Shown: positions 1,971 through 17,201 of the stretch, in pieces
How the letters are laid out: each line of letters begins with the position of its first letter
How positions within the stretch are numbered: the first letter of the stretch is position 1
NCBI GenBank assembly: GCA_002796835.1
Contig: LUGL01000016.1
Coordinates: forward strand, 1-64,000
Source of the DNA: Elainella saxicola E1
Lineage (GTDB): Bacteria; Cyanobacteriota; Cyanobacteriia; Elainellales; Elainellaceae
Direction of reading: 5' to 3'
Length of the DNA: 64,000 nt
Translations under genes and position numbers: made by a program
Notes under the pieces: generated by a model
Told to the model about the DNA's origin: nothing
Database searches by the model: none
What the model saw: only the letters and a program-made list of their open reading frames with translations

Positions 1971-2055
1971 GTCTAACAACGCTGTTTCAGAGGACTACCG
2001 CAAGATTGACGAAGATGTAAAGGTTTATTGCAGCCGCTGAACAGCAACGTTAGGT
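1971..2055 (+). repeat. attC-like imperfect palindrome (site A)
   Basis: GTCTAACAACGCTGTTTCAG ... CCGCTGAACAGCAACGTTAGGT; outer boxes fit RYYYAAC and GTTRRRY, inner arms pair imperfectly; starts 16 nt after the preceding stop. Confidence 0.55.
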
Positions 2056-2178
2056 AGCTTGAGCTACTGATCGGGTTCCGAGCCAACTTCCACCTATCTC
2101 TATCCTCTATCAAGAAGGAGCCTGTGAATCAGGTGACTGCGATCGCCAAACCAAGGATCTAAAATTTGATGATTAGGT

Positions 2179-2766
2179 TTAACTGCGGTGTCGCTCTAGT
2201 AACGTCTCTACTAAAGATTGTGCTGTTTTCAGTCGATTAGGATCATTCGACTGTGCAACCCAAGCTGCTAAATCATTGAGCGAACCATTAACCAGGTGAG
2301 CAAAACCCTCTGCATCGATTGTATTTAGCTCGCCCTCAGTGACTGCAATCTGAATAGACTCACGGAGCAAAGCAAAGCCATACTGATCCATTTCAGCCAA
2401 GTCATCTGCTGCCAAAACTGCTGGAGCTTCAACGAAAACTAAACGTCGCAGTTCCTCCTGGTGAGCGACTTCGAGAAATGCCTGACAGCCAATGATGAGT
2501 TGCTGCCAATTGGTGTCTAAGGGCTGAATTTTAGCCTGGATGTAGCCCGTGATCTCACCGTAGGCTTCAACGATGACCGCCTTAAACACGCCCAACTTAT
2601 CGTTGAATTGGTGATACAAGGCTCCCCGCGTAATCCCTAATTCGCTGATGATTTCCTCGGTTCCCGTAGCGGCATACCCTTTTGTAGAAAACAAGTGACG
2701 GGCTCGATCCAGAATGGCGCGGCGAGTGCGACGAGTTTGTTCTGCTTTGGTCAACTTAGCAGGCAT
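2179..2766 (-). CDS. TetR/AcrR family transcriptional regulator
   Basis: RRAILDRARHLFSTKGYAATGTEEIISELGITRGALYHQFNDKLGVFKAV HTH signature. Confidence 0.93.
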   Translation of the reverse strand: MPAKLTKAEQTRRTRRAILDRARHLFSTKGYAATGTEEIISELGITRGALYHQFNDKLGVFKAVIVEAYGEITGYIQAKIQPLDTNWQQLIIGCQAFLEVAHQEELRRLVFVEAPAVLAADDLAEMDQYGFALLRESIQIAVTEGELNTIDAEGFAHLVNGSLNDLAAWVAQSNDPNRLKTAQSLVETLLERHRS

Positions 2767-2791
2767 GATGAATCGCTCAATTTAACATTCA

Positions 2792-2857
2792 GACAGTATG
2801 TATCTTGACAAGAGGGATGCACTCTCGCTACTTTAAGATACATACAGATTGTATCTT
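2792..2857. promoter_or_regulatory. Putative TetR operators in divergent intergenic region
   Basis: AAGATACA-TACAGAT-TGTATCTT inverted repeat at 2835-2857; the half sequence AAGATACATAC recurs on the minus strand at about 2797-2808. Confidence 0.6.
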
Positions 2858-2886
2858 TATGTGAGGGATTTCCTCAAAGGGGTTTT

Positions 2887-3585
2887 ATGTTAGCCACCCT
2901 CAGCACTCGCAAAGCAACCATTGCTGATATTCCATTCCTCGCCCAAATTGAGTACGAAGCTTCTTTGCCGCCATTCGATCACTGTTTTTGGGAAGATCTG
3001 TTAGAGGGGACTGGAACGACTGCCTTGCAATTTATCGAGGCAGAACTGAGGACAGATGCTTCTAATTGGGGCAATGTTGAAGATTTCCTGATTCTGGAGG
3101 CTGAAGGTCAGCCCGTTGCTGCCGCAGCAGGTTATGTGCCCGATACAGAAGACTATTGCCCGTTGCGCCTGTCCCATTTAGAGGCGATCGCCCACGAGTT
3201 GAAGTGGTCCAGGGAAACCTTAAGCATCTTTCGTGATCGCTATCTGGCACTTTGGGGAGGCGATGTGCGCCCCTTTTTCCTCACACCTCAAGCAACCTGG
3301 ATTATTGAAAATGTTGCCGTGTTACCAGAAGCGCGGGGGCGAGGCTTTGGTAAAGCGTTACTCAGAGCCTTAATCGAGGAGGGGCGATCACAGCAGCATA
3401 GCTTTGCTGGAATTATGGTGATCAACGGCAATGATATCGCTCGCCACACCTATGAGTCCATCGGGTTTAAGCCCTATCAAACCTTCCACGCCGATTACTT
3501 CTTAGAACAATTCAACATTCAGTTTCCAGGAGTGACCAAGTTTGGTCTGCGGCTCAATGAACAGGAGAAAAGCGATGTCTTTTAA
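2887..3585 (+). CDS. GNAT family N-acetyltransferase
   Basis: IIENVAVLPEARGRGFGKALLRALIEEGRSQ acetyl-CoA binding motif. Confidence 0.88.
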   Translation: MLATLSTRKATIADIPFLAQIEYEASLPPFDHCFWEDLLEGTGTTALQFIEAELRTDASNWGNVEDFLILEAEGQPVAAAAGYVPDTEDYCPLRLSHLEAIAHELKWSRETLSIFRDRYLALWGGDVRPFFLTPQATWIIENVAVLPEARGRGFGKALLRALIEEGRSQQHSFAGIMVINGNDIARHTYESIGFKPYQTFHADYFLEQFNIQFPGVTKFGLRLNEQEKSDVF

Positions 3586-4270
3586 GACCATTCTGGTCGC
3601 AGGAGCCAGTCGCGGCATTGGGCTTGCCGTTGCAGAACATTTGATAGACCAGTGCGATCGCCTATTAGCGGTGTCACGAACTGTGGCTCCGGTAGGTGAA
3701 TGGGTACAGGCAGATTTGTCTGACCTGGCAGGAATCGAAACGGTGATCAACGCGATCGGGGATGATGCCTTAGATGCGTTGCTATATATGGGTGGGGTCT
3801 GGGAAACCCACGCATTTACCCCTCAGTATCGCTTTGAAACTTGTTCTGATGAAGACATTATTCGCGTGATTGCCGTCAATCTGGTCGCTCCCATTCGCTT
3901 GGTAAAAGCGTTACTGCCTGCCCTGCGGCGATCGGATAATCCCAAAATCATTTTTATGGGAGCGCTCTCAGGTCGAGATAACTTTCCAGGGCGGGAGGTT
4001 GCCAATAGTGCATCCAAGTTTGGACTGCGGGGAGTGGTGCATTCCTTACGGGAAGAATTGCGATCGCAGCAAATTGGCGTAACCGTGATTAACCCTGGCA
4101 ATGTCGGCACACCCGAAGTTCTAGCAGATCTGGCAGCAGCCAATCTGACGGGCGGTGAAGCCATTCCTCTGAGCGATCTTTTTGCCATCGTTGACTGTAT
4201 TCTCTCATTGTCACGAGCTACTTGTATTAAAGAGATTGATGTACCTGCAATGCTAGGTGAGGGAGCTTAA
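3575..4270 (+). CDS. SDR family NAD(P)-dependent oxidoreductase
   Basis: MSFKTILVAGASRGIGLAVAEHL, NSASKFGLRGVVHSLREEL (YxxxK-like region as SASKF). Confidence 0.88.
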   Translation: MSFKTILVAGASRGIGLAVAEHLIDQCDRLLAVSRTVAPVGEWVQADLSDLAGIETVINAIGDDALDALLYMGGVWETHAFTPQYRFETCSDEDIIRVIAVNLVAPIRLVKALLPALRRSDNPKIIFMGALSGRDNFPGREVANSASKFGLRGVVHSLREELRSQQIGVTVINPGNVGTPEVLADLAAANLTGGEAIPLSDLFAIVDCILSLSRATCIKEIDVPAMLGEGA

Positions 4271-4338
4271 TGGAGCTTAAATTGATGATACTGGCGATTA
4301 GTTGTGGCGATTATTGAACGAGTTGCTAGTTGCCCGCC

Positions 4339-4424
4339 ACCTAACAACCGTGTTGTAGCGGGCGATACAAAACCTTGGTTGTGACGCAAAGGCTCCTTGC
4401 CACTGCTGAACACGAACGTTAGCC
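4339..4424 (+). repeat. attC-like imperfect palindrome (site B)
   Basis: ACCTAACAACCGTGTTGTAGCGGG ... CTGCTGAACACGAACGTTAGCC; right arm closely similar to site A (GCTGAACA(GC/CG)AACGTTAG). Confidence 0.5.
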
Positions 4425-4473
4425 AGCAGACCTTCAAAGCTCAGTTCATCAGGAGTTATGGAGTAAAGTTCTA

Positions 4474-5034
4474 TTGTTTTCAGTAGATTTCCTTCCCCAA
4501 TCAACTGAACGGCTGACTCTACGTCGGTTTATCGATCTAGATCTGGATCTATTTCTTTCCTACCGTCAGGATCCTCAAGTAGCTCAATTCCAAAGTTGGT
4601 CAATCCCTTCCCACGATGAAGCTCGATCTTTTATCAGTGAAATGAACACAGCAGCAATCGGGATACCCGGTGAATGGTTTCAAATCGCGATTGCCCACAG
4701 ACAGTCCAACTTGCTGCTCGGCGACATAGGAATGCAGCCTTATCTTGAAGATCCAGGAATGGTGGAAATTGGGTTTACTTTGAGTCGTGAATCGCAAGGG
4801 AAAGGATACGCTAAAGAAGCGGTTCAGGCTCTCATTGACTCACTGTTTGACCTTGGAAGGATTCACAAAATTGTCGGCATAACCGACAGGCGAAATGAGC
4901 CTTCTGCCCGCCTGCTGAGACGTTTGGGAATGAAGCTGGTTGCATCTGCCGAGGTGGAATTTAGAGGTGAATTGTGTGTTGAACAAACGTTTGAACTAGA
5001 CAAAAAAGATTGGTTGTTTAGCCAAGCAGGCTAA
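4474..5034 (+). CDS. GNAT family N-acetyltransferase (RimJ/RimL type)
   Basis: TERLTLRRFIDLDLDLFLSYRQDPQVAQFQSW ... GFTLSRESQGKGYAKEAVQALIDSLFDLGRIHKI; TTG start. Confidence 0.9.
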   Translation: MFSVDFLPQSTERLTLRRFIDLDLDLFLSYRQDPQVAQFQSWSIPSHDEARSFISEMNTAAIGIPGEWFQIAIAHRQSNLLLGDIGMQPYLEDPGMVEIGFTLSRESQGKGYAKEAVQALIDSLFDLGRIHKIVGITDRRNEPSARLLRRLGMKLVASAEVEFRGELCVEQTFELDKKDWLFSQAG

Positions 5035-5131
5035 CCATTCTGGTGTAGCGGATTGCTTGCAATCGTTGGACTAGATATAAGTTGGACTAGATATAAAAAG
5101 GAGGAGCAACCGCTGACCAGAGCCGTTAGCT
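5030..5131 (+). repeat. attC-like imperfect palindrome (site C)
   Basis: GCTAACCATTCTGGTGTAGCGG ... CCGCTGACCAGAGCCGTTAGCT; the arms pair over about 20 nt with mismatches; overlaps the stop of the upstream GNAT gene. Confidence 0.5.
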
Positions 5132-5239
5132 TGCTTTCAGCACAGTGCGATTGAGTGCGATCGCCATCACCTATGAAGCAATAGTTTAATGGCAGTGAGA
5201 GATCGGGCAATTACTGTTTGTTGAAGGTGTCAGTACATT

Positions 5240-5518
5240 TTGCAGAATAGTGCATCAAATAATGTATTTTATAACTACATACCTATAAGAATATTGATGA
5301 AGAATTTTTTATCTATATTGGTGTTCCTGGTTTGTTCAATTGTCGGAGTTTTCATCTCAGTAAAGATAGCTTATCCAATCGCTGAAGATGCTGATAAGAA
5401 CTGGGGTGGACTCCTATTTTCCCCTGGAGATATGGTAATTCTTAAGGCCGCTTTTTTGGGTGGGTTTGGCGGTCTATTCGTTGGTTTCTTCGTTCGCAAA
5501 TATTTTATTCGTATCTAA
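5240..5518 (+). CDS. small hypothetical membrane protein
   Basis: 92-aa ORF with two hydrophobic segments; true start may be the internal ATG MKNFLSILVF. Confidence 0.5.
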   Translation: MQNSASNNVFYNYIPIRILMKNFLSILVFLVCSIVGVFISVKIAYPIAEDADKNWGGLLFSPGDMVILKAAFLGGFGGLFVGFFVRKYFIRI

Positions 5519-5645
5519 CTTCTAGTATGGCTAAGTGCAAGGGAGACCGAAAATAATTGCCGTTTATCCCTGGAATTCGATCGACTCTCACCCTCAAAAC
5601 CCCCATCCGTAATCTAGCGGCAGTCAACCCAGTTCATTTATCGTC

Positions 5646-6188
5646 TCATTCTAACGGTATTGGCTTTGTATCGTAGAAGAAGCGTTTGGCAGCATCGCTA
5701 TAGAGGAGACGCACCGCTAGAAATCCTAGAAGCATTGCCGGTAAAATATCTAAGACAATCCTTTGCACCATCTCTGGATAGCTTGAGTAACCACAAGATC
5801 GGCTGATGTACGATAAGCCATCCTCTTTCCAACATTCATAGGAAGCGGGTAAGGATTGCCCCTGAGTGACAGAAGTATAAATGAGTTGGAGCAAGGGACT
5901 TTGGGCGATCGCCACTATCATGCTGCCAATTAGGAAACTCACTGCCAACCACTTGCTGTAGCGTTTTCTTTTCTGCAATCCCCAAAAAGTCAGTCCTAGC
6001 AGAACAAGAATCAAGCAGCCAGTCACAAAGGATGCAATTTTAGGAAAGGATGAACAGCTTTGGATTTGCCCAGATGTAAAACATTGAACCAATCCAGCAG
6101 GTAGCGCGATCGCCAAGTTCCCAAAGGTCAGCACCAAAAGAATTTGGGTAATCCATACACTAGGTGGACGATATATATGTTGATTCAT
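5646..6188 (-). CDS. hypothetical membrane protein
   Basis: From MNQHIYRPPSVWITQILLVLTFGNLAIALP; several TM segments; longer upstream start would overlap the next gene. Confidence 0.6.
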   Translation of the reverse strand: MNQHIYRPPSVWITQILLVLTFGNLAIALPAGLVQCFTSGQIQSCSSFPKIASFVTGCLILVLLGLTFWGLQKRKRYSKWLAVSFLIGSMIVAIAQSPLLQLIYTSVTQGQSLPASYECWKEDGLSYISRSCGYSSYPEMVQRIVLDILPAMLLGFLAVRLLYSDAAKRFFYDTKPIPLE

Positions 6189-6267
6189 CTTCCCAAAGAG
6201 GGTGATGGAGTCAGCAGCTTCAAGCATTTTGGGGGATTGAAGATCGCCAACTCCGCTGTTTCGCAAC

Positions 6268-6702
6268 CTAGCTGAAATCCCGCAGCATTTTCTTAATTTC
6301 GAGATTATGCATTTCTTCCTGGCCAATCATCGATCGGGCAAATTCCTCCAAATAAATGCTGGCATCCGCTACAACTTCCAGCAGCTTTTTATAGAGGTCG
6401 AGGGCGCGTCTCTCATGATTCAAGCTTTCCTGCAAGATATCCTGGACAGAATGCCGATGGGTTTCCTCAATTGGGGCAATTCGCAGAGAAGGATGCCCTT
6501 CTAGACCGGTCAAAATTTCACCCACCTGTTGGGCATGCAGCAGCGACTCAGACGCTTGAGCCTTAAAGAAAGCGACGATTGGAATGCGATTCGGGCCGAT
6601 CACCATCAGGGAATAGTGGGTATAGCGCACGACGCCCGCTAACTCAAATTCCATGATCGCATTAAGCAAATCTGTGGTTTGTTGAACATCTAGGTCTTTC
6701 AT
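6268..6702 (-). CDS. ferritin-like / bacterioferritin-family protein
   Basis: MEFELAGVVRYTHYSLM ... HAQQVGEIL ... SLNHERRALDLYKKLLE ... MIGQEEMHNLEIKKML four-helix metal-binding pattern. Confidence 0.8.
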   Translation of the reverse strand: MKDLDVQQTTDLLNAIMEFELAGVVRYTHYSLMVIGPNRIPIVAFFKAQASESLLHAQQVGEILTGLEGHPSLRIAPIEETHRHSVQDILQESLNHERRALDLYKKLLEVVADASIYLEEFARSMIGQEEMHNLEIKKMLRDFS

Positions 6703-6838
6703 GGGTTTAGGGGATAAGAGCTTCCAGCCCTTTAGCTTATCACCCCCTTATTGCAAATGTTCGCAATAATCCCCTTTCTTAACCTTTCAACGCAGATCGA
6801 TTGAATGCCGATCGATCGGCCCCTGCAATCGCCATGCG

Positions 6839-7567
6839 TTACTGCTTCACCAAGGTCCATTCCAGAATGTGAATGGGAGCTTGTTGGAGGGCTTCTACTA
6901 AAGCCTCACTACTTTCAAACTTCAGTTCAGAAAGATAGGTAGCCTCCACATTCACCGTAAAGGACTTTTCCTCAAATGGCCAGGGTTCAACAGTCAGTTT
7001 GCCATCCGGCAGTTCTCGGATGTCGTAGCGCTGGCCATCAATGCCGCTGGTAATCTCCAACGCGCGTCCAGCCTCAGGAACTTTGCGCTGCGCCAAAATC
7101 AGCGAAAACCGATCGCACCACCGCATAAACTGGTAAGCCCGTTCGGCTTCCTCTGGCGTAATTCCCAACGCTTTGCGGTACTCCTCCTGCAAGTCGAGCT
7201 GCTCATCCAAAAATTCATCCCAGTCTTTGGACTGGCCGCGTTGATGTTGATTCAAAAAGCAAATGTGTTTGGAAGTTAAAAATGTGACCCAACGACCTCG
7301 ATAACGGGCGCTGGTCAATTGCTTCCTGAAAGGCTCGATCGAATCTCCATGCTGCAACGTAAAATCCAAGGGCGCACCTGCTTCTGTAATCGCGTTGCCT
7401 TCCCACTCGCGGGCTAAATCATCATGGTGAGAAATGGCAGCAATGGTTTCGTACAGGCGTTCTGGAGCGTTCGATCGTTGCCAATGTCCGGCGATCTGAG
7501 CTGCTAATAAGGCATGCGCCCGATGATAAATCACTTCCCAGCCATTTTCGACTAAATTGACGATCAT
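6839..7567 (-). CDS. DUF3891 family protein
   Basis: MIVNLVENGWEVIYHRAHALLAAQIAGHW ... ISHHDDLAREWEGNAIT; start chosen at the internal ATG. Confidence 0.75.
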   Translation of the reverse strand: MIVNLVENGWEVIYHRAHALLAAQIAGHWQRSNAPERLYETIAAISHHDDLAREWEGNAITEAGAPLDFTLQHGDSIEPFRKQLTSARYRGRWVTFLTSKHICFLNQHQRGQSKDWDEFLDEQLDLQEEYRKALGITPEEAERAYQFMRWCDRFSLILAQRKVPEAGRALEITSGIDGQRYDIRELPDGKLTVEPWPFEEKSFTVNVEATYLSELKFESSEALVEALQQAPIHILEWTLVKQ

Positions 7568-7653
7568 TTCTGTTGTTCCTTCAGTTGATTGATTTGTATT
7601 TCCGGCAAAAAGGGCCTGGTTTCCCAAGCCCTGCAAGTTCAACGAATTCGAAA

Positions 7654-10600
7654 TTAAGACGAGGCCAGGGTGCCTCCGACTGCTGCCGCAACTGCTGAAA
7701 CCAATGCTGTTGCAAACAGCCACCAAGCGGCTACAGAAGCGGCCTGACGGGTTTCTTCGAGCTGACGTTGGGCCTGGGCTTTCACGGCTTCCAAACGACG
7801 TTGGGCTTCGAGCTGAATCTGCTCGGCTCGCTGTAACACGCTTGTTCTGGCTCCTTCGATCTGGTCCAGAATCCGGTTGACATCGGCCTCTGACACATCT
7901 TCACGGGAACTCAGCACCGCCACCAATGTATTGCGATCGAACTGACTCAAGCGGTGACGCAGGGCTTCAAAGCCTGCCTGCGGATCGTCGAGTAGCTGCC
8001 GCACATCCTGTCTGATGCCTTCGTAGTTCAACTCTGGTCGATTCAGTGAATTGAGGTAATCTCGAATGCGAGCCAGAATGTTATCGATCACAGATTGGAT
8101 ACGGGTTTGCACCTTATTAAGCTGATCCAACATTTGATCGCGCACGGCTTCAACTTGTGCCACAATCTGCTCTGCTTCTGCTTCAGACATATCTTGGCGT
8201 TGGGAGAGCAGGGCAATCAGCGTTGACCGATCCATGCGAGAGAGCCGATCGCCCAAATTCTGTAATCCCAGCCGAGGCGATTCCAGTAAGTAACGGAGGT
8301 CACGTTTAATCCCTTCTGGATTTAACTCTTCCTTATTCGTGTTACGCAGATATTGTTCCAAATTGTCTTGAAAATCAGTTACCGTTTGCTGCGTTCGCAA
8401 AGCCAGCCGTCGCGGAGCTTTCACCATTTGCTGAATGCTTCCCAGCACTTGATCGATCGTCCGATTCACTTGCGCTTCTGATAGATCACGGCGTTGACTC
8501 AACAATCGCACCAGCGTTTCGCGATCGATTCGAGATAGGCGGCGTCTCAATGCAACGGCTCCTTCTTTCGGATCATGCAAGAGCTGCTGCAAATCTCGCT
8601 GAATTCCGTCTGGGTCAAGTTCTTCTAAATTCGTGCGTCGTAAATAGTCCGCCAGGGTAGACAGCGTTTGATCATATTGATCTTTGGCGGCATGAGCCAC
8701 TGTACTCGGCGCATGTGTGAAGTTATACCAATTGGATTCAATTTGATCGACAATTCGATTGGCTTCTGCCTCACTCAAATCTTGCCGCTGACTGAGTAAG
8801 CCTACCCAAGTTTCGCGATCGAACTGAGCAGCCCGATGCCGCAGCGCCGAGATTCCAGTAGACGGATCGTTGACCAATAGTTGGAAATCGCGTTGAATGC
8901 CTGCTGGATCCAGCTCTGCTTTGCCCGTATCCCGTAGATGAGCCGCCAATCTGGATTGAAAATCGCTATAGCGTTGCTTGGCCTGTTCTCCCAGCGATCG
9001 CGATTCAAACAAAACCTGGTTGCGGCTCCGTTCCAAAACATCCAGAATGGCATTGCGTTCAGACAAAGTCAGGTCTTGGCGCTGTTGTAAAATCTGCTCT
9101 AACCTGGAGCGATCGTAAGGCAAGAAACGTTGCTGCAAAGTCTCAAAATCTGCATCCTCGTCTTTTAGTAATGCCTCAAAGGCAGGCAACCGCTCCGGCG
9201 TAACGAGTTGCTCTTTAGGAGTCAAGGTTAGATAAATATCAATACGCTGCCGCAGATCAGCTGAAATTTCTCGTTCTTGTTCCGCTTCAACTGTTCGCAA
9301 CACCTCTTGCCGCACTGCCTCCAGCTGATCGGCAATTTCCTGAATCCGCTCTTGGGTAAACACACCACGCGAGGCCAAAAGCTGAACAAATTGATTGCGA
9401 TTGAGCTGTGACACAGACGCCCGAACTGCGTCAGCATCGGCACCCGGATCATAAAGCACATTGCGAAACTCACGGGCAACAGTTGCTTGATCCATTTGCC
9501 AGGAATAGGTTGTCAGCAGATAATGCTCCACATCGGCCTGAATCGGGTTATAGGCTGGCTCGCTGATCACTTTTGCGGTGACGGTCTGGGTCTGATCGGT
9601 CACTGTTGAAGAAACCGATTTGATTCGATCGATGATTTGCGACAGATTCAAATCCGATAGATCTGTACGACCCATCAACAGGCCGATCGCGGTTGTTAAC
9701 CCCGATTGCAAGGTTTGTTGCATCCCGGATCCGCTAGCGTTGCCTGCATTTGCCGTTCTGGGTTCCCGTTGTTCCGCTAACAGGCGATCGAGCTTAGCAT
9801 TCAATTCCTCCACTCTAAGCTGACCTGATTGAGTGTTACGCAGATATTCAACCAGTTCTCCTAGGTTATCTGAACGGCGACGCTTGCCCAACGTACTGGT
9901 CCAAACGGCCTCCAGGAGGTCCACTAGGCGATTGACTTCCTGCCGCGATAAATCGGTACGTTGGCTAACTAAATCTGCAAAAGTATTGCGATCGATCGAT
10001 TTGAGATTACCGCTATCTGCCAGTTCCGCAATTTCTGGATCGTTCAGCAAATTTTCTAAATCTGCCTGCACCCGCTGTAAATCGAGACTGGGCAGCTTTA
10101 AATTTCCCAGATAGCTTTCAACAGAATTGCGCAGGCTACCTGGATCGATCGCTGACCCCAACTCATTGCGGACTGCTGAGACCACCGCTTCTGCGGTTGA
10201 CACAACCTGCTGTTTAGCTGCCTGACCACCGATCGCAGCCGTTGCTGTTCCCCAAACAGCTTGAAATCCTGAAGTTGCGGCCTGTACCACTGAACCAACC
10301 AGCGATCCGACCGTGGTTGAACTGACCCACACCAGCAGCGAGAAATAAGCCGCCCAAATCACCAAACTGATGATGGCTCCAAGTCGCGGACTGGTTAACA
10401 AACTAAGCTGAACGGCTAGATAGCAAGCAAAGAACAAGGCGACAGTTACGGTGATCAGGGTCCACAACCCTACACCAAAGCTAATTTTGCGGATCGTGGT
10501 TCCAACGCCACTGCCCTCTTCGCGATCGCGATCGTTGTGGCTTGGCTTGGACAAATTGCCCAGGAGAGAAATCCCTGCCGCGACCGAAAAGTTAGTCAGC

Positions 10601-10803
10601 AAAAGCTGAATGGCAAAGGCTAGCAGAATTCCTGAAATTAATGCAATAAAAAATTGCGGTCCAGAGAACAGAACAGAAGCAGCCTCTGGTGTTTCGATTT
10701 GATTTGAATCAGGAATTTGAGCAAACCATGTTGTCCAAATTCCAAATTCAGGTCTTAATAATATGCTTAAATCCATATTCTCTCCTGTTTCTGAACCATT
10801 CAA
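7654..10803 (-). CDS. large membrane-anchored protein with multiple ~100-aa helical repeats
   Basis: N-terminal TM segments, then repeated modules such as LEQYLRNTNKEELNPEGIKRDLRYLLESP...LSRMDRSTLIALLSQRQDMSEAEAEQIVAQVE, and a C-terminal TM helix. Confidence 0.85.
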   Translation of the reverse strand: MNGSETGENMDLSILLRPEFGIWTTWFAQIPDSNQIETPEAASVLFSGPQFFIALISGILLAFAIQLLLTNFSVAAGISLLGNLSKPSHNDRDREEGSGVGTTIRKISFGVGLWTLITVTVALFFACYLAVQLSLLTSPRLGAIISLVIWAAYFSLLVWVSSTTVGSLVGSVVQAATSGFQAVWGTATAAIGGQAAKQQVVSTAEAVVSAVRNELGSAIDPGSLRNSVESYLGNLKLPSLDLQRVQADLENLLNDPEIAELADSGNLKSIDRNTFADLVSQRTDLSRQEVNRLVDLLEAVWTSTLGKRRRSDNLGELVEYLRNTQSGQLRVEELNAKLDRLLAEQREPRTANAGNASGSGMQQTLQSGLTTAIGLLMGRTDLSDLNLSQIIDRIKSVSSTVTDQTQTVTAKVISEPAYNPIQADVEHYLLTTYSWQMDQATVAREFRNVLYDPGADADAVRASVSQLNRNQFVQLLASRGVFTQERIQEIADQLEAVRQEVLRTVEAEQEREISADLRQRIDIYLTLTPKEQLVTPERLPAFEALLKDEDADFETLQQRFLPYDRSRLEQILQQRQDLTLSERNAILDVLERSRNQVLFESRSLGEQAKQRYSDFQSRLAAHLRDTGKAELDPAGIQRDFQLLVNDPSTGISALRHRAAQFDRETWVGLLSQRQDLSEAEANRIVDQIESNWYNFTHAPSTVAHAAKDQYDQTLSTLADYLRRTNLEELDPDGIQRDLQQLLHDPKEGAVALRRRLSRIDRETLVRLLSQRRDLSEAQVNRTIDQVLGSIQQMVKAPRRLALRTQQTVTDFQDNLEQYLRNTNKEELNPEGIKRDLRYLLESPRLGLQNLGDRLSRMDRSTLIALLSQRQDMSEAEAEQIVAQVEAVRDQMLDQLNKVQTRIQSVIDNILARIRDYLNSLNRPELNYEGIRQDVRQLLDDPQAGFEALRHRLSQFDRNTLVAVLSSREDVSEADVNRILDQIEGARTSVLQRAEQIQLEAQRRLEAVKAQAQRQLEETRQAASVAAWWLFATALVSAVAAAVGGTLASS

Positions 10804-11081
10804 GGGGCATCAAACAGCAGTCATCGATAATCGTCTCTTTACGAACTGCTCTGTCGTCTAAGATCCTTCTGTTTGGAGAGATTTCACATCTTTCTCTGGA
10901 GGGAAACCTGCCTTTTCATCGCAGTAATCTACATATTTATAGAGATTTAGTTCCTTCATCTGGCAGAGGTTAGAAGCAATACATTTGTCTAGCTTGCTGA
11001 TTAGAACATTCATGGTAATCAGCAGAATCAAGCAAAGAGTCAAACAAGCATCAAGCAGACGTTAATGTTGGAGGATAAATC

Positions 11082-11330
11082 ATGCTGGATTTGGAAAACC
11101 TGCCACAGGATGTGAAGGAATCGTTGCCCCAGGAAGCCCAAAAGCTTTACATTGCTGCCTACAACAGCTTTTTAGACAATTCCCACAATGAAGAAGCTGC
11201 TGCTCGGGTGGCATGGCAGACGATCGAACGTAACGAACATTACTGTCGAGGGGAAGATGGCAAATGGTATCGTCAGGATAGTGATGGACCAGAACACCGG
11301 GGCCCCTTAGGCTCTATGCCCGGTTCCTGA
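11082..11330 (+). CDS. ChaB family protein
   Basis: LPQDVKESLPQEAQKLYIAAYNSFLDNSHNEEAAARVAWQTIERNEHYCRGEDGKWYR. Confidence 0.85.
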   Translation: MLDLENLPQDVKESLPQEAQKLYIAAYNSFLDNSHNEEAAARVAWQTIERNEHYCRGEDGKWYRQDSDGPEHRGPLGSMPGS

Positions 11331-11377
11331 TTAGATCTTGGCAAAACTTTTGGGGAGAACTTTTCGGGAGAACGAAC

Positions 11378-11584
11378 ATGCCTTATCGCCAATTAAGCGA
11401 TTTGCCTGATTCAGTCCGATCGCATTTACCCAAACATGCCCAAGAGATCTTCCAGGCCGCTTTTAATAGCGCTGAGCAGGAATATGCTGAAGAGGAGCGG
11501 GCCTTCCGAGTTGCCTAGAGTGCCGTCAAACATCAGTATGAAAAAGGTGAAGATGGCAATTGGCATGCCAAGGCTGAATTCTGA
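11378..11584 (+). pseudogene. second ChaB-like gene interrupted by in-frame TAG
   Basis: MPYRQLSDLPDSVRSHLPKHAQEIFQAAFNSAEQEYAEEERAFRVA*SAVKHQYEKGEDGNWHAKAEF*; TAG at 11516-11518 sits where the paralogue has Trp (RVAW). Confidence 0.75.
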
Positions 11585-11598
11585 TCGGCGATCGGCTC

Positions 11599-12066
11599 TT
11601 AACGGATCAGCTGCAAGATTTGAGGTCGCGTAAAATCGATCAGCGCCTTTTGTTCAGGCCAGTATATATAGGGAAGTTGGTTGAGCAAAAACCAGGCCAT
11701 CTCATTTCCGGGCTCTAACCTTGCTATATTGGCCTGAATTTGATGCGTTCGAAAGAGGAAATAGTACACTTTCTTCCAGCGCCGCTTGGAATAGCTGAGC
11801 CGTTCCCTGGAACCCAAATCCAGCAGTAATTTCAGTTCAGTCAACCCTGCCTCTTCCGCAATTTCTCGATGGGCTGCCTGCTCGATCGATTCTCCCGGCT
11901 CCAACCGTCCTTTCGGCAACACATATCCGGGTGCGCCTTTTTCTCGAATTAGGGCTACATAATGGTCTGATCCTTGCGTTCTGACCACGATTCCGCCTGC
12001 CGAGACTTCTTCTTCAACATTGGGGGGACGATGATACCAACTGTCATCGATCGGGGGAAACTCCAT
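11599..12066 (-). CDS. NUDIX hydrolase
   Basis: GYVLPKGRLEPGESIEQAAHREIAEEAGL matches GX5EX7REUXEEXGU. Confidence 0.93.
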   Translation of the reverse strand: MEFPPIDDSWYHRPPNVEEEVSAGGIVVRTQGSDHYVALIREKGAPGYVLPKGRLEPGESIEQAAHREIAEEAGLTELKLLLDLGSRERLSYSKRRWKKVYYFLFRTHQIQANIARLEPGNEMAWFLLNQLPYIYWPEQKALIDFTRPQILQLIR

Positions 12067-13212: not shown

Positions 13213-13317
13213 TCCGATCGAAATTTCAAGCACTCTAATATAGGCAAGGACTGGCAAAACGTTGGTCTGATGACTCGATCAAGTTATGTCAAAACCAACA
13301 ATTTCAAATATCGATCG

Positions 13318-13764
13318 TTAGTCTACGATTAGCCCAGAAATTTCTTGAGTATTCACCTCATTCATATTGAAGCTGGACTCAGAGGCTGATTCTTCTAAGA
13401 CCCGTTGAAGGCGATCGAGGCTGGCTTGCAAATCTTCGCGTAGATGGGATAAGGACACGAGTTTTTCATCGGTTTCTTGCAATCTCTGCTGCAAGATTTC
13501 GATTAGCGCCTGCAAGTGACACCGATTAGAAAGTTCCTCAAAGTAAAGAGGCAGCATGTGTGCAATTTCCTCAAGGCTAAAACCCAATGCCTTTAAATCA
13601 TTAATTTTTTGCAAGCGAGTCAGCGCGACTTGCGTGTAATATCGAAACCCGCTTCCCTGCCGCTCACTAGGACCCAGTAATCCCAAACTTTCGTAATACC
13701 GCACGGTTCGAGGAGTCACTCCTGCTAAATCTGCTAACTGTCCAATTCGCATTTTTTCGCTCAC
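13318..13764 (-). CDS. MerR family transcriptional regulator
   Basis: MRIGQLADLAGVTPRTVRYYESLGLLGPSERQGSGFRYYTQVALTRLQKI. Confidence 0.93.
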   Translation of the reverse strand: MSEKMRIGQLADLAGVTPRTVRYYESLGLLGPSERQGSGFRYYTQVALTRLQKINDLKALGFSLEEIAHMLPLYFEELSNRCHLQALIEILQQRLQETDEKLVSLSHLREDLQASLDRLQRVLEESASESSFNMNEVNTQEISGLIVD

Positions 13765-13780
13765 GCCGTATCACCTTTCA

Positions 13781-13802
13781 ACTCTAACGTTAACGTCAAG
13801 TA
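13781..13802 (-). promoter_or_regulatory. Putative MerR-type operator/promoter upstream of merR gene
   Basis: Minus strand ACTTGACGTTAACGTTAGAGTT: ACGTTAACGT palindrome next to a TTGACG -35-like box. Confidence 0.4.
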
Positions 13803-14712
13803 ATTACCCGATTAGTGACATTTAAATCTATTGTTGCGATCGCGATTGATTTTGAATAGCTTTGATTTCTTATCAAATTAATATGTGTGTTTTAATCCCT
13901 GAATCTTTCTATTCTTATCCCAGATAAGCTCTATAGACCTTGCAAAAGCTGGGCATGTAGGAATTGTGGGATGTGGGTGATTAACCATAGAAAATCAGTA
14001 ATGACATTACCTCAATCTTCTTGATACCTACCTGGAAAACCCCAGGTCTTGATCCATAGAACTTTTACTCTATTAACGAGTGAGTTGGTTCTATGCAGTT
14101 TTTGGGCAAACCCAGAAATAATGGCTGTAATCCAGTCAGGAAAAGGCTTTTAATAAAACATGGCAATTTAACCGCATGCTTCTGTTTTGGCAAGAACCAT
14201 AGAGATTTACTATTTTCTTATCGATTTTATTTGGATTTTTTCTATAATTTTATCGATCCCCTACTAGACGGAGGGGGATCAGAGACAGTAATCTTTGTTC
14301 ATCAACGTAATTTGCACAACAAATTGTTCCTGGAAAGAGATCGGCAATATTATCGTCTATTTTCGGCGAAGTAGTATTGTACGAACGGCTTTCTTCTAGA
14401 TCGGAATTATAGAGAAACTTGTCAACTCTGAAGATCGCGAGGTCAGGCCAAACTTATTCTTTCCGGGTGCGAATCGAATCTGAAAAGCGAGGCTCTCATC
14501 AAAATAGTTTGAAAAGAGTCTGTTAGCATTCCTGTTCTCGATCGCTTTTCAATTCCAAATCATTTTCTAGTCGCAATTGTTGTATGGCTTTTAGCCTCAA
14601 TTTCTGCTGGCTAGAAACTGGTGGCCCTAAATTTTCCAAAACACAAGCTGTTGTCAGTAAAGCAGGCGTTCTTCTCTCGCTGCTCAGGAGTCTCAACGTT
14701 TAGGAGGTACCA

Positions 14713-16077
14713 ATGACCGATTTTTCTCAGTTCACACGGCGTCGATTTATCGCAACGGCTGGCGCAACGGCTGCGACTAGCATCCTTTTGAAAGGCTGTT
14801 TGGGGAATCCTCCCAGCGACAGTGCTACTGCAACACAACCCAGTCCTGCTGCCTCATCGGTCAATGTCAACAGCAATGAAGCCCCCGAAATTACCACGGT
14901 GAAATTGGGCTATATTCCGATCGTCGAAGCAGCTCCCATCATCGTGGCTCAGCAAAAGGGATTCTTCGCCAAATATGGCATGACGGGTGTAGAGGTCTCG
15001 AAGCAGTCCAACTGGGCTTCCGCACGGGACAACATCGTGAATGGTTCAGCAGCAGGTGGTATTGATGGGGGGCAATGGCAAATGCCGATGCCTCATCTGA
15101 TTACTGAAGGGTTAATTACCAATGGCCGCAAAACTCCGATGTATGTTCTGGCTCAATTAGTCACGAACGGCAATGGCATTGCAATTTCGGGTAAGAATGT
15201 TGGCAAAGGCATTGGCTTGAAGATTTCAGATCCGGACTACATCAAAGGATTCCAGAAAACCGAGGGTCGGAAATTCAAAGCAGCCTACACCTTCCCGAAT
15301 GCTAACCAGGATTTCTGGATTCGTTACTGGCTAGCGGCTAGCGGCATTGATCCAGATAATGACATTGACTTGTTGGCTGTTCCGCCTGCCGAAACGGTGC
15401 AGGGTATGAAAACGGGTACGATGGATGCGTTCAGTACCGGTGACCCTTGGCCCTACCGGATCGTTGCGGATGACATTGGCTTCATGGCTGCCTTGACGGA
15501 GCAAATTTGGCAGTTCCATCCTGAAGAATATTTGGCCATGCGGGCTGACTGGGTTGACAAGTATCCCAAAGCTACAAAGGCAATTTTGAAAGGGATTATG
15601 GAAGCTCAGCAGTGGTGTGACGATCCGGCCAATCGCAAGGAGCTGGTGACGATGCTGTCTGGACGGAACTTCTTCAACTTGCCTGAAGCTGTGCTGACCC
15701 CACCCTTTGAAGGACGCTATAAGCTGGGCGACGGCAAGCCAGATATCGATAATTTCAAATCGGGGCCGCTGTACTGGAAAGATGGCGTTGGCAGTGTCTC
15801 TTATCCTTACAAGAGTCATGATCTGTGGTTCTTGACGGAGACGATGCGCTGGAATTTCCACAATGGCGCAATTAAAGATTTTGATATGGCGAAGAAGTTG
15901 ATCGATCAAGTCAATCGCGAGGATCTGTGGAAAGAGGCGGCCAAGGACGCAGGAATTGCCGCAGCCGATATTCCGACTTCGACTTCGCGTGGCGTTGAAA
16001 CCTTCTTCGACAAGGTGAAGTTTGATCCAGAAAACCCAGAGGCTTATCTCGCCAGCCTCAAGATCAAAAAAGCTTAG
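14713..16077 (+). CDS. cmpA: ABC transporter substrate-binding lipoprotein, CmpA type (bicarbonate) of the NrtA/CmpA family
   Basis: [27 protein letters not shown] Tat/lipoprotein leader; [45 protein letters not shown] ... [19 protein letters not shown] reads as CmpA rather than NrtA. Confidence 0.85.
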
Positions 16078-16349
16078 TCTTCAGTTGATCTGCTCTGTGA
16101 AAATGGGCAGTCCTGAAACTTAGAACCTCGAAGCTAACCCGGTTTGAACATCATTGCGGTTGCAGTGAAACGGTTGAAGCGGGTTTCCTTCGGAACCTTT
16201 AGGCGGATGGGGCACGTAGCAGCGCACCCCACCCAGGTCGGCTCAGTGCGTATCGACCCTAGCAAATGGTACAGAGGGCGATCGCAAACCGATACCGAAT
16301 AAGTCAATTCTTGCACTTCTTGTACTTTATTACTTCATTCAGGATAGCT

Positions 16350-17201
16350 ATGGTTGCAAATGCAGGAACCCGGACCTCCGGGACAAATTTTTCGGAGTCG
16401 CTGCGATCGTTTTGGAAAAAGAATGGTGAGAATATTGTTCTCCCTATTATTGGGATTCTGGGATTTCTCGTCATCTGGCAGTTCGCATCCATGGCTCAGC
16501 TCACCAAACTGCCGCCTCCCACTTCACTGTGGACCGATAAGCAAACTCAAGAGCTGTTGCTCTATCCCTTTATGGATCGGGGTGGCTTAGATAAGGGTCT
16601 GTTCTGGCAAACCTGGGAAAGTTTGAAACGGGTGGCGCTAGGCTATACTGCCGCTGCGATCGTCGGCATTGGACTGGGTATTCTCGTGGGTACCCAACCG
16701 AAGGTAAATAAAGCGCTGGATCCACTGTTCCAGTTCTTGCGAATGATCGCCCCTCTGGCCTGGGTTCCCATCACCTTGATTGCGCTGCCGAACGTCCAAA
16801 CTGCTGCAATCTTCGTGATTTTCATTACCTCCGTTTGGCCGATTCTGATCAACACCACGGTGGGTGTGCAGCAAATTCCTCAGGACTACAAAAACGTGGC
16901 TCGCGTGCTGCAAATTTCTCCGACCAAATACTTCTTCAAGATTCTGATTCCTTCAGCCTTGCCCTACATCTTCACTGGATTGCGAATTGCGATCGGTCTA
17001 GCTTGGTTGGCAATTATTGCGGCAGAAATTGTGATGTCTGGTGTAGTTGGGATTGGCTTCTTCATCTGGAGCGCCTATCAAAACAACTATGTAAGTGAAG
17101 TGCTGCTGGCGGTTGTGTATATCGGTGCGGTGGGTCTGTTGCTCGATCGGTTCATGGCCTTCCTGCAACACAAGATTCTGCCAACGGACTCTCGTAGCTA
17201 G
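16350..17201 (+). CDS. cmpB: ABC transporter permease, CmpB/NrtB family
   Basis: FLRMIAPLAWVPITLIALPNVQTAAIFVIFITSVWPILINTTVGV; IGLAWLAIIAAEIVMSGVVGIGFFIW. Confidence 0.87.
   Translation: MVANAGTRTSGTNFSESLRSFWKKNGENIVLPIIGILGFLVIWQFASMAQLTKLPPPTSLWTDKQTQELLLYPFMDRGGLDKGLFWQTWESLKRVALGYTAAAIVGIGLGILVGTQPKVNKALDPLFQFLRMIAPLAWVPITLIALPNVQTAAIFVIFITSVWPILINTTVGVQQIPQDYKNVARVLQISPTKYFFKILIPSALPYIFTGLRIAIGLAWLAIIAAEIVMSGVVGIGFFIWSAYQNNYVSEVLLAVVYIGAVGLLLDRFMAFLQHKILPTDSRS

Follow-up and report, generated by a model that had tools for sequence, protein, structure and literature searches.

Are three palindromes lying close together near the start of a cyanobacterial contig the recombination sites of mobile gene cassettes, and if so which integrase might act on them? 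The first-pass annotation had described three attC-like palindromes (A, B and C) in one orientation, with shared CTAAC...GTTAG outer boxes and inner pairing arms, and had offered two readings, a cassette cluster lacking an integrase or a dispersed attC-derived repeat. The window, i.e. the whole stretch of DNA analysed, comprises bases 1-64000 of the 91-kb contig C88 from an 8.7 Mb genome in 284 contigs. All three palindromes are present where they had been placed, except that C starts at 5029 and not at 5030; each has the boxes and arms described, and all are in + strand sense, the orientation of the genes. We conclude with high confidence that A, B and C are attC sites and that the locus is a CALIN, i.e. 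a cluster of attC sites without a local intI. Its features are as follows, gene functions being predicted at the level of the protein family.

423-1955, + strand: ORF1, 510 amino acids, no family match; its stop lies about 15 bp before attC A
1971-2055, + strand: attC A, with R'' GTCTAAC, L'' GCTGTT-T-CAGAGG, L' CCGCTGAACAGC and R' GTTAGGT; the extra top-strand base is T
2179-2766, - strand: TetR-family regulator, divergent, in the A-B segment
2887-3585, + strand: GNAT acetyltransferase, in the A-B segment
3542-4270, + strand: short-chain dehydrogenase (SDR), in the A-B segment
4339-4424, + strand: attC B, with R'' ACCTAAC, L'' CGTGTT-G-TAGCGG, L' CTGCTGAACACG and R' GTTAGCC
4474-5034, + strand: GNAT acetyltransferase, the sole gene of the B-C cassette, attC-flanked in other cyanobacteria
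5029-5131, + strand: attC C, with R'' GGCTAAC, L'' TTCTGGT-G-TAGCGG and R' GTTAGCT
5065-5096, + strand: 16-bp tandem duplication, an exact copy (GTTGGACTAGATATAA), in the variable loop of attC C

The three sites are built on a common plan: the R pair is CTAAC/GTTAG, the spacer has 3 nt, and the L stem of 12 bp carries one extra base on its 5' (L'') arm, which is T in A but G in the other two. The features that define an integron attC are accordingly there: R boxes with the AAC/GTT core, paired L boxes with an unpaired spacer between R and L, and an extrahelical base in the L'' arm that gives the site its strand polarity. R and L pair at 16-17 of 17 positions, which is better than in many other sites of the same genome. 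A fits both halves of the GTTRRRY/RYYYAAC consensus while B and C, as had been remarked, differ from it at one or two letters. GTTAGCC and GTTAGAC, however, rank with the commonest R' boxes of this attC family, also near intI genes. Site C is longer because of the exact duplication in its loop and would otherwise measure 87 bp.

A, B and C were the three top hits of an R/L-box scan of the window (scores 15.5, 14.0 and 13.0; the maximum in five shuffled windows was 12.5). A scan of the window against Rfam matched no family, and since no Rfam attC model matched we built covariance models of our own. Seven sites of this genome, found at first by a 3'-arm pattern and box scans, gave model R1, and 23 model-selected sites gave model R2. 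With R2, A, B and C all score (70.5, 77.5 and 58.6 bits), partly by construction because they are among the sites from which R1 and R2 were built, while elsewhere on C88 nothing exceeded 12 bits except the reverse strand of A. Neither of the findings that the first-pass annotation had named as fatal to an attC reading, i.e. no covariance-model hit and no unpaired spacers or extrahelical bases, was made. Independent support for the identity of the sites comes from covariation, from other sites in this genome and its relatives, and from linkage to intI. Folding energy is by itself weak evidence: relative to shuffles, z for the single strand is about -0.6 for A, where it is uninformative, about -2 for B and about -3.7 for C, and when B is folded with its flanks the predicted minimum-energy structure differs from the attC hairpin.

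Counted genome-wide, as had been proposed, similar sites number more than 30 at E below 1e-3 in the R1/R2 search, which is a lower bound because the best 150 candidates were scored per genome. Inside each of the clusters on C45, C58, C61, C88 and C107 the site orientation is uniform. In the seven own-genome sites 89.8% of cells are paired (82.3% when shuffled) and six pairs show changes on both sides. An alignment of 91 distinct sites from about 24 genomes contains 248 compensatory cells compared with 76 after shuffling, and the covariation score is 0.418 against 0.120 for shuffled and at most 0.093 for slid alignments; the alignment was fitted to the structure by the covariance model, which favours pairing, yet the sliding control still stays below 0.1. 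Searched with R2, neither 424 kb of DNA from other bacteria nor 16 non-cyanobacterial genomes (E up to 0.1) yielded a match. The window is taken to be cyanobacterial because GCGATCGC occurs 33 times, where 1.1 occurrences are expected, and because of the relatives of the cassette gene given below.

A CALIN as defined in IntegronFinder (PMC9024848) has at least two attC within 4 kb, in one orientation and without a local intI, and the layout is identical here, with gaps of 2.3 and 0.6 kb. The locus as seen is not a complete integron: intI lies on C8 and not on C88. The contig end truncates the cluster on its left, so that a link to an intI beyond this point might exist. The first-pass annotation was right for the window in calling this a cassette cluster lacking an integrase, as there is no intI anywhere on C88; its remark that no integrase is visible does not extend to the genome, in which the intI search it had suggested revealed one intact gene and a broken remnant on C61. 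The intact gene (C8:60228-61169) encodes a full-length integron integrase (TIGR02249, 470 bits, cut-off 265) that aligns over its whole length with the integron integrase IntI4 (2a3v; E 2.4e-91). Its catalytic residues are present (R138, K163, H269, R272, H295 and Y304), and the positions that contact extrahelical bases, taken from PMC3053210, are filled (K148, R160, K211, Y212, W221, P234, H242 and H243). An attC of the A-C family (L010:18102-18207) is located about 4 kb upstream of this gene on the opposite strand. More generally, 20 regions around intI in this and related genomes contain 30 sites in 13 regions, and in 13 of 13 these are all upstream and on the opposite strand (sign test P = 2.4e-4). 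Integrons are normally laid out in this way, which links the site family to IntI. An initial, folding-based site search near the intI genes had returned nothing, probably due to too strict conditions.

Some other elements were seen around the intI genes. Between the C8 gene and its nearest attC, IS66 transposase and RNase_H_2 domains, fused or adjacent, occupy one 746-residue frame (L010:14862-17102). Upstream of the broken intI on C61, beside a probable membrane acyltransferase gene, there is a palindrome of about 60 bp, GCCCAACAAG...TTGGGCGTTAGCT (L012:9194-9253, i.e. G000:C61, about 43.59-43.65 kb), which by eye resembles a proteobacterial attC. Moreover, imperfect short repeats that differ between copies lie upstream of intI genes or fragments (L010:14080-14260, L012:7600-7920 and L014:3290-3480), and these may be attI sites.

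The B-C segment has one gene, the GNAT acetyltransferase. The nearest relatives of its GNAT gene are nearly all cyanobacterial, with 62-74% protein identity in Scytonema, Nodosilinea, Pseudanabaena, Obscuribacter, Phormidesmis and others. In Nodosilinea (L100) and an Obscuribacter MAG (L102) the gene is attC-flanked on both sides with the spacing seen in the window, and in Scytonema (L099) an attC is immediately upstream of it. Nucleotide homology to the window (blastn) runs from 4417 to 5053 and stops at the cassette ends; specifically, in L100, L103 and L104 it begins at 4417-4419 and is over by 5055, although upstream of the L103 copy we found no recognisable attC. When six species are aligned, their common sequence starts at the crossover triplet GTT (GTTAGCC; GTTAACC in L102 and CTTAGCC in L104), with unrelated DNA upstream, as it would if IntI cut between G and TT. 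On these comparisons the crossover in attC B would be placed between G4418 and T4419, and the B-C GNAT gene is, judging by the sequence, a mobile cassette.

The attC anatomy, the covariation, the orientation, the intI linkage in other cyanobacteria and the B-C boundary at the crossover triplet are computational observations, and the following mechanism is proposed alongside them. The bottom strand of A, B and C would each fold into a hairpin recognised by an IntI-family tyrosine recombinase, the cut in the R' box falling between G and TT; A-B (TetR, GNAT and SDR) and B-C (GNAT) could then leave as circles and insert at other places. The integrase acting in trans would most likely be the intact IntI on C8, which we infer to be active and to act on A, B and C. 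The cluster presumably became separated from intI when it was inserted in trans, when intI was lost or when the DNA was rearranged; the published routes for such clusters are off-target insertion, intI loss and rearrangement (PMC8618304), and in PMC11389934 insertion at non-classical sites is attributed to Loot et al. 2024. In principle, CALIN cassettes are open to mobilisation in trans (PMC9668308, PMC11389934), and what sets the present locus apart from described CALIN is its cyanobacterial host and the separate intact intI in the same genome.

We consider that the cluster is probably still mobile in this strain. The main alternative, a fossil cluster that has lost its intI or been parted from it by rearrangement, with sites that no integrase in this cell recognises any longer, is unlikely but has points in its favour: C88 is without intI and starts in an IS-like gene, intI remnants are common in this genome and its relatives, and 37 of the 84 attC-bearing genomes in a sample of the class (see below) have no intI match at 1e-30. 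Against it, the same genome carries an intact intI, the R and L pairing of A-C is nearly full, and the B-C cassette recurs in distant cyanobacteria. That the GNAT gene instead spread by ordinary horizontal transfer or common descent, with attC nearby by coincidence, fits its homologues in Calothrix and Oculatella, which are without an R2 match nearby, but is very improbable in view of the doubly flanked genes in Nodosilinea and Obscuribacter and of a conserved leader that starts at the crossover base. A dispersed palindromic repeat (REP- or MITE-like, or a terminator hairpin) resembling attC by chance is less credible still and was rejected on polarity, intI linkage and cassette boundaries: the sites are scattered on many contigs and A and C lie, terminator-like, directly downstream of genes, but the asymmetric extra base on the 5' arm, the fixed spacer and the R boxes are integron features, the position relative to intI is constant, the homology boundaries fall on the crossover triplet, and A-C are without the T-run of intrinsic terminators. 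The earlier suggestion of a dispersed attC-derived repeat was half right because the sites are indeed scattered over many contigs; they behave as cassette attC, not as non-mobile repeats.

Returning to the putatively mobile cluster, ORF1 is the probable gene of the first visible cassette, the left boundary of which is not seen as the contig begins at window base 1. A helix-turn-helix (HTH_29/HTH_28) reading frame at 2-289 on the - strand probably encodes an N-terminal portion of an IS630-type transposase and is the likely cause of the assembly break; the left boundary of the cluster is hidden because of this IS-like gene. Relatives of the same genus share the chromosome only to the right of about 6268, where they have no attC; when an empty site was sought in them none could be defined, the left flanks being unrelated.

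The A-B segment, with 2.3 kb and three genes of which one is divergent, would make a large cassette and may represent two fused cassettes minus a lost attC. In a genome of another genus (G020) the TetR-GNAT stretch is 92% identical and is positioned behind a different gene with its own attC, while two genomes of that genus (G045 and G046) have attC-less operons with 74-78% identity. In these and several other genomes taken together, the TetR-GNAT-SDR operon without attC nearby is 70-78% identical; in one of them (G018) an attC is located about 1.4 kb from it. The difference between the 92% copy and the 70-78% of the attC-less operons suggests, at the level of sequence, that the attC-bearing TetR-GNAT form moved between genera. 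The operon (L206-L210 compared with window 2179-4270) is attC-less in several genera and attC-bearing here and in G020. Possibly a chromosomal operon gave rise to a cassette here, and the two forms side by side offer a case for studying how an operon becomes a cassette.

The extrahelical bases distinguish the family from most known attC, which have G at the second extrahelical position (PMC3053210). In the 91 sites this position is top G (bottom C) in 88, and the first, six nucleotides away, is top A (bottom T) in 83, counts to be read with the models having been trained on such sites, so that other attC types could be missed. A model-independent script found G at the second position in 83/91, and with the side left free the extra base was on the 5' arm in 84/91. 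The same script applied to the aadA1 attC, the orientation of which was checked in an annotated plasmid, gave top C (bottom G), as published, with the extra base also on the 5' arm. While the family consensus is T-N6-C, A has T-N6-A, B has C-N6-C and C has T-N6-C; A and B thus depart from it, A being without the family's usual extrahelical base, and none of the three has the T-N6-G of the described majority. In PMC3053210 blaVIM-2 is singled out as the one cassette whose second extrahelical base is C, although dfrA1 is also described as A-N7-8-C; the blaVIM-2 attC shares the bottom C with the present sites, but as an isolated case, unlike the near uniformity seen here. If the T-N6-C signature holds, it provides a natural test of how integrases read extrahelical bases, previously studied on mutants of one site (PMC3053210).

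We then consider the class as a whole, using an even sample of 116 members; counts over 115 high-quality genomes stand in brackets. Sites of the A-C type (R2, E up to 1e-4) are present in 84/116 (83/115), and an intI match at 1e-30 in 50/116 (49/115), 39 of these above the family cut-off; 47 genomes have both, 37 attC only and three intI only (Fisher P = 2.7e-6). The genomes without sites are mostly small, but a few sites-free genomes have 4-6 Mb. According to IntegronFinder 2.0, 93% of complete integrons are in gamma-Proteobacteria (PMC9024848), and sites in 83 of 115 genomes despite that figure make the class-wide result weightier than the locus, itself an ordinary integron cassette cluster. 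Tentatively, the class may have an attC type of its own, with bottom-strand C in place of G as second extrahelical base; most genomes larger than about 4 Mb would contain dozens of small clusters of it that lack an integrase, together with few and often decayed intI. The integron would then be a cassette pool scattered over the genome, in place of a single array behind a single integrase, and its recognition code would differ from that of Vibrio and class 1 integrons.

Earlier work described cyanobacterial integrons (PMC2426708, PMC8618304), and Ghaly et al. 2021 provided an attC covariance model for cyanobacteria (PMC8352920), so the system is of an already known kind; the class-wide prevalence and the extrahelical-base signature go beyond these sources. 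The cyanobacterial sites were already distinct enough to receive a model of their own in PMC8352920, in which the main text is silent on extrahelical bases, unlike the present analysis. With the VCR arrays of Vibrio (sedentary chromosomal integrons) the sites share a near-uniform length, mostly 84-90 bp, and a partly conserved loop, and intI is likewise divergent from the array, but here many small clusters are spread over the genome in place of one large array, and the signature is T-N6-C in contrast to T-N6-G.

Two arrangements in one of the other genomes (G006) may be added. At L173 (G006:C1:1685001-1705000) at least nine attC in one orientation lie beside an intI remnant (1685491-1685733, - strand), which is consistent with integrase decay producing a CALIN. 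At L174 (G006:C1:5195001-5212000) two attC arrays converge, the first on the + strand from 3736 to 11630 and the second on the - strand from 13217 to 16945.
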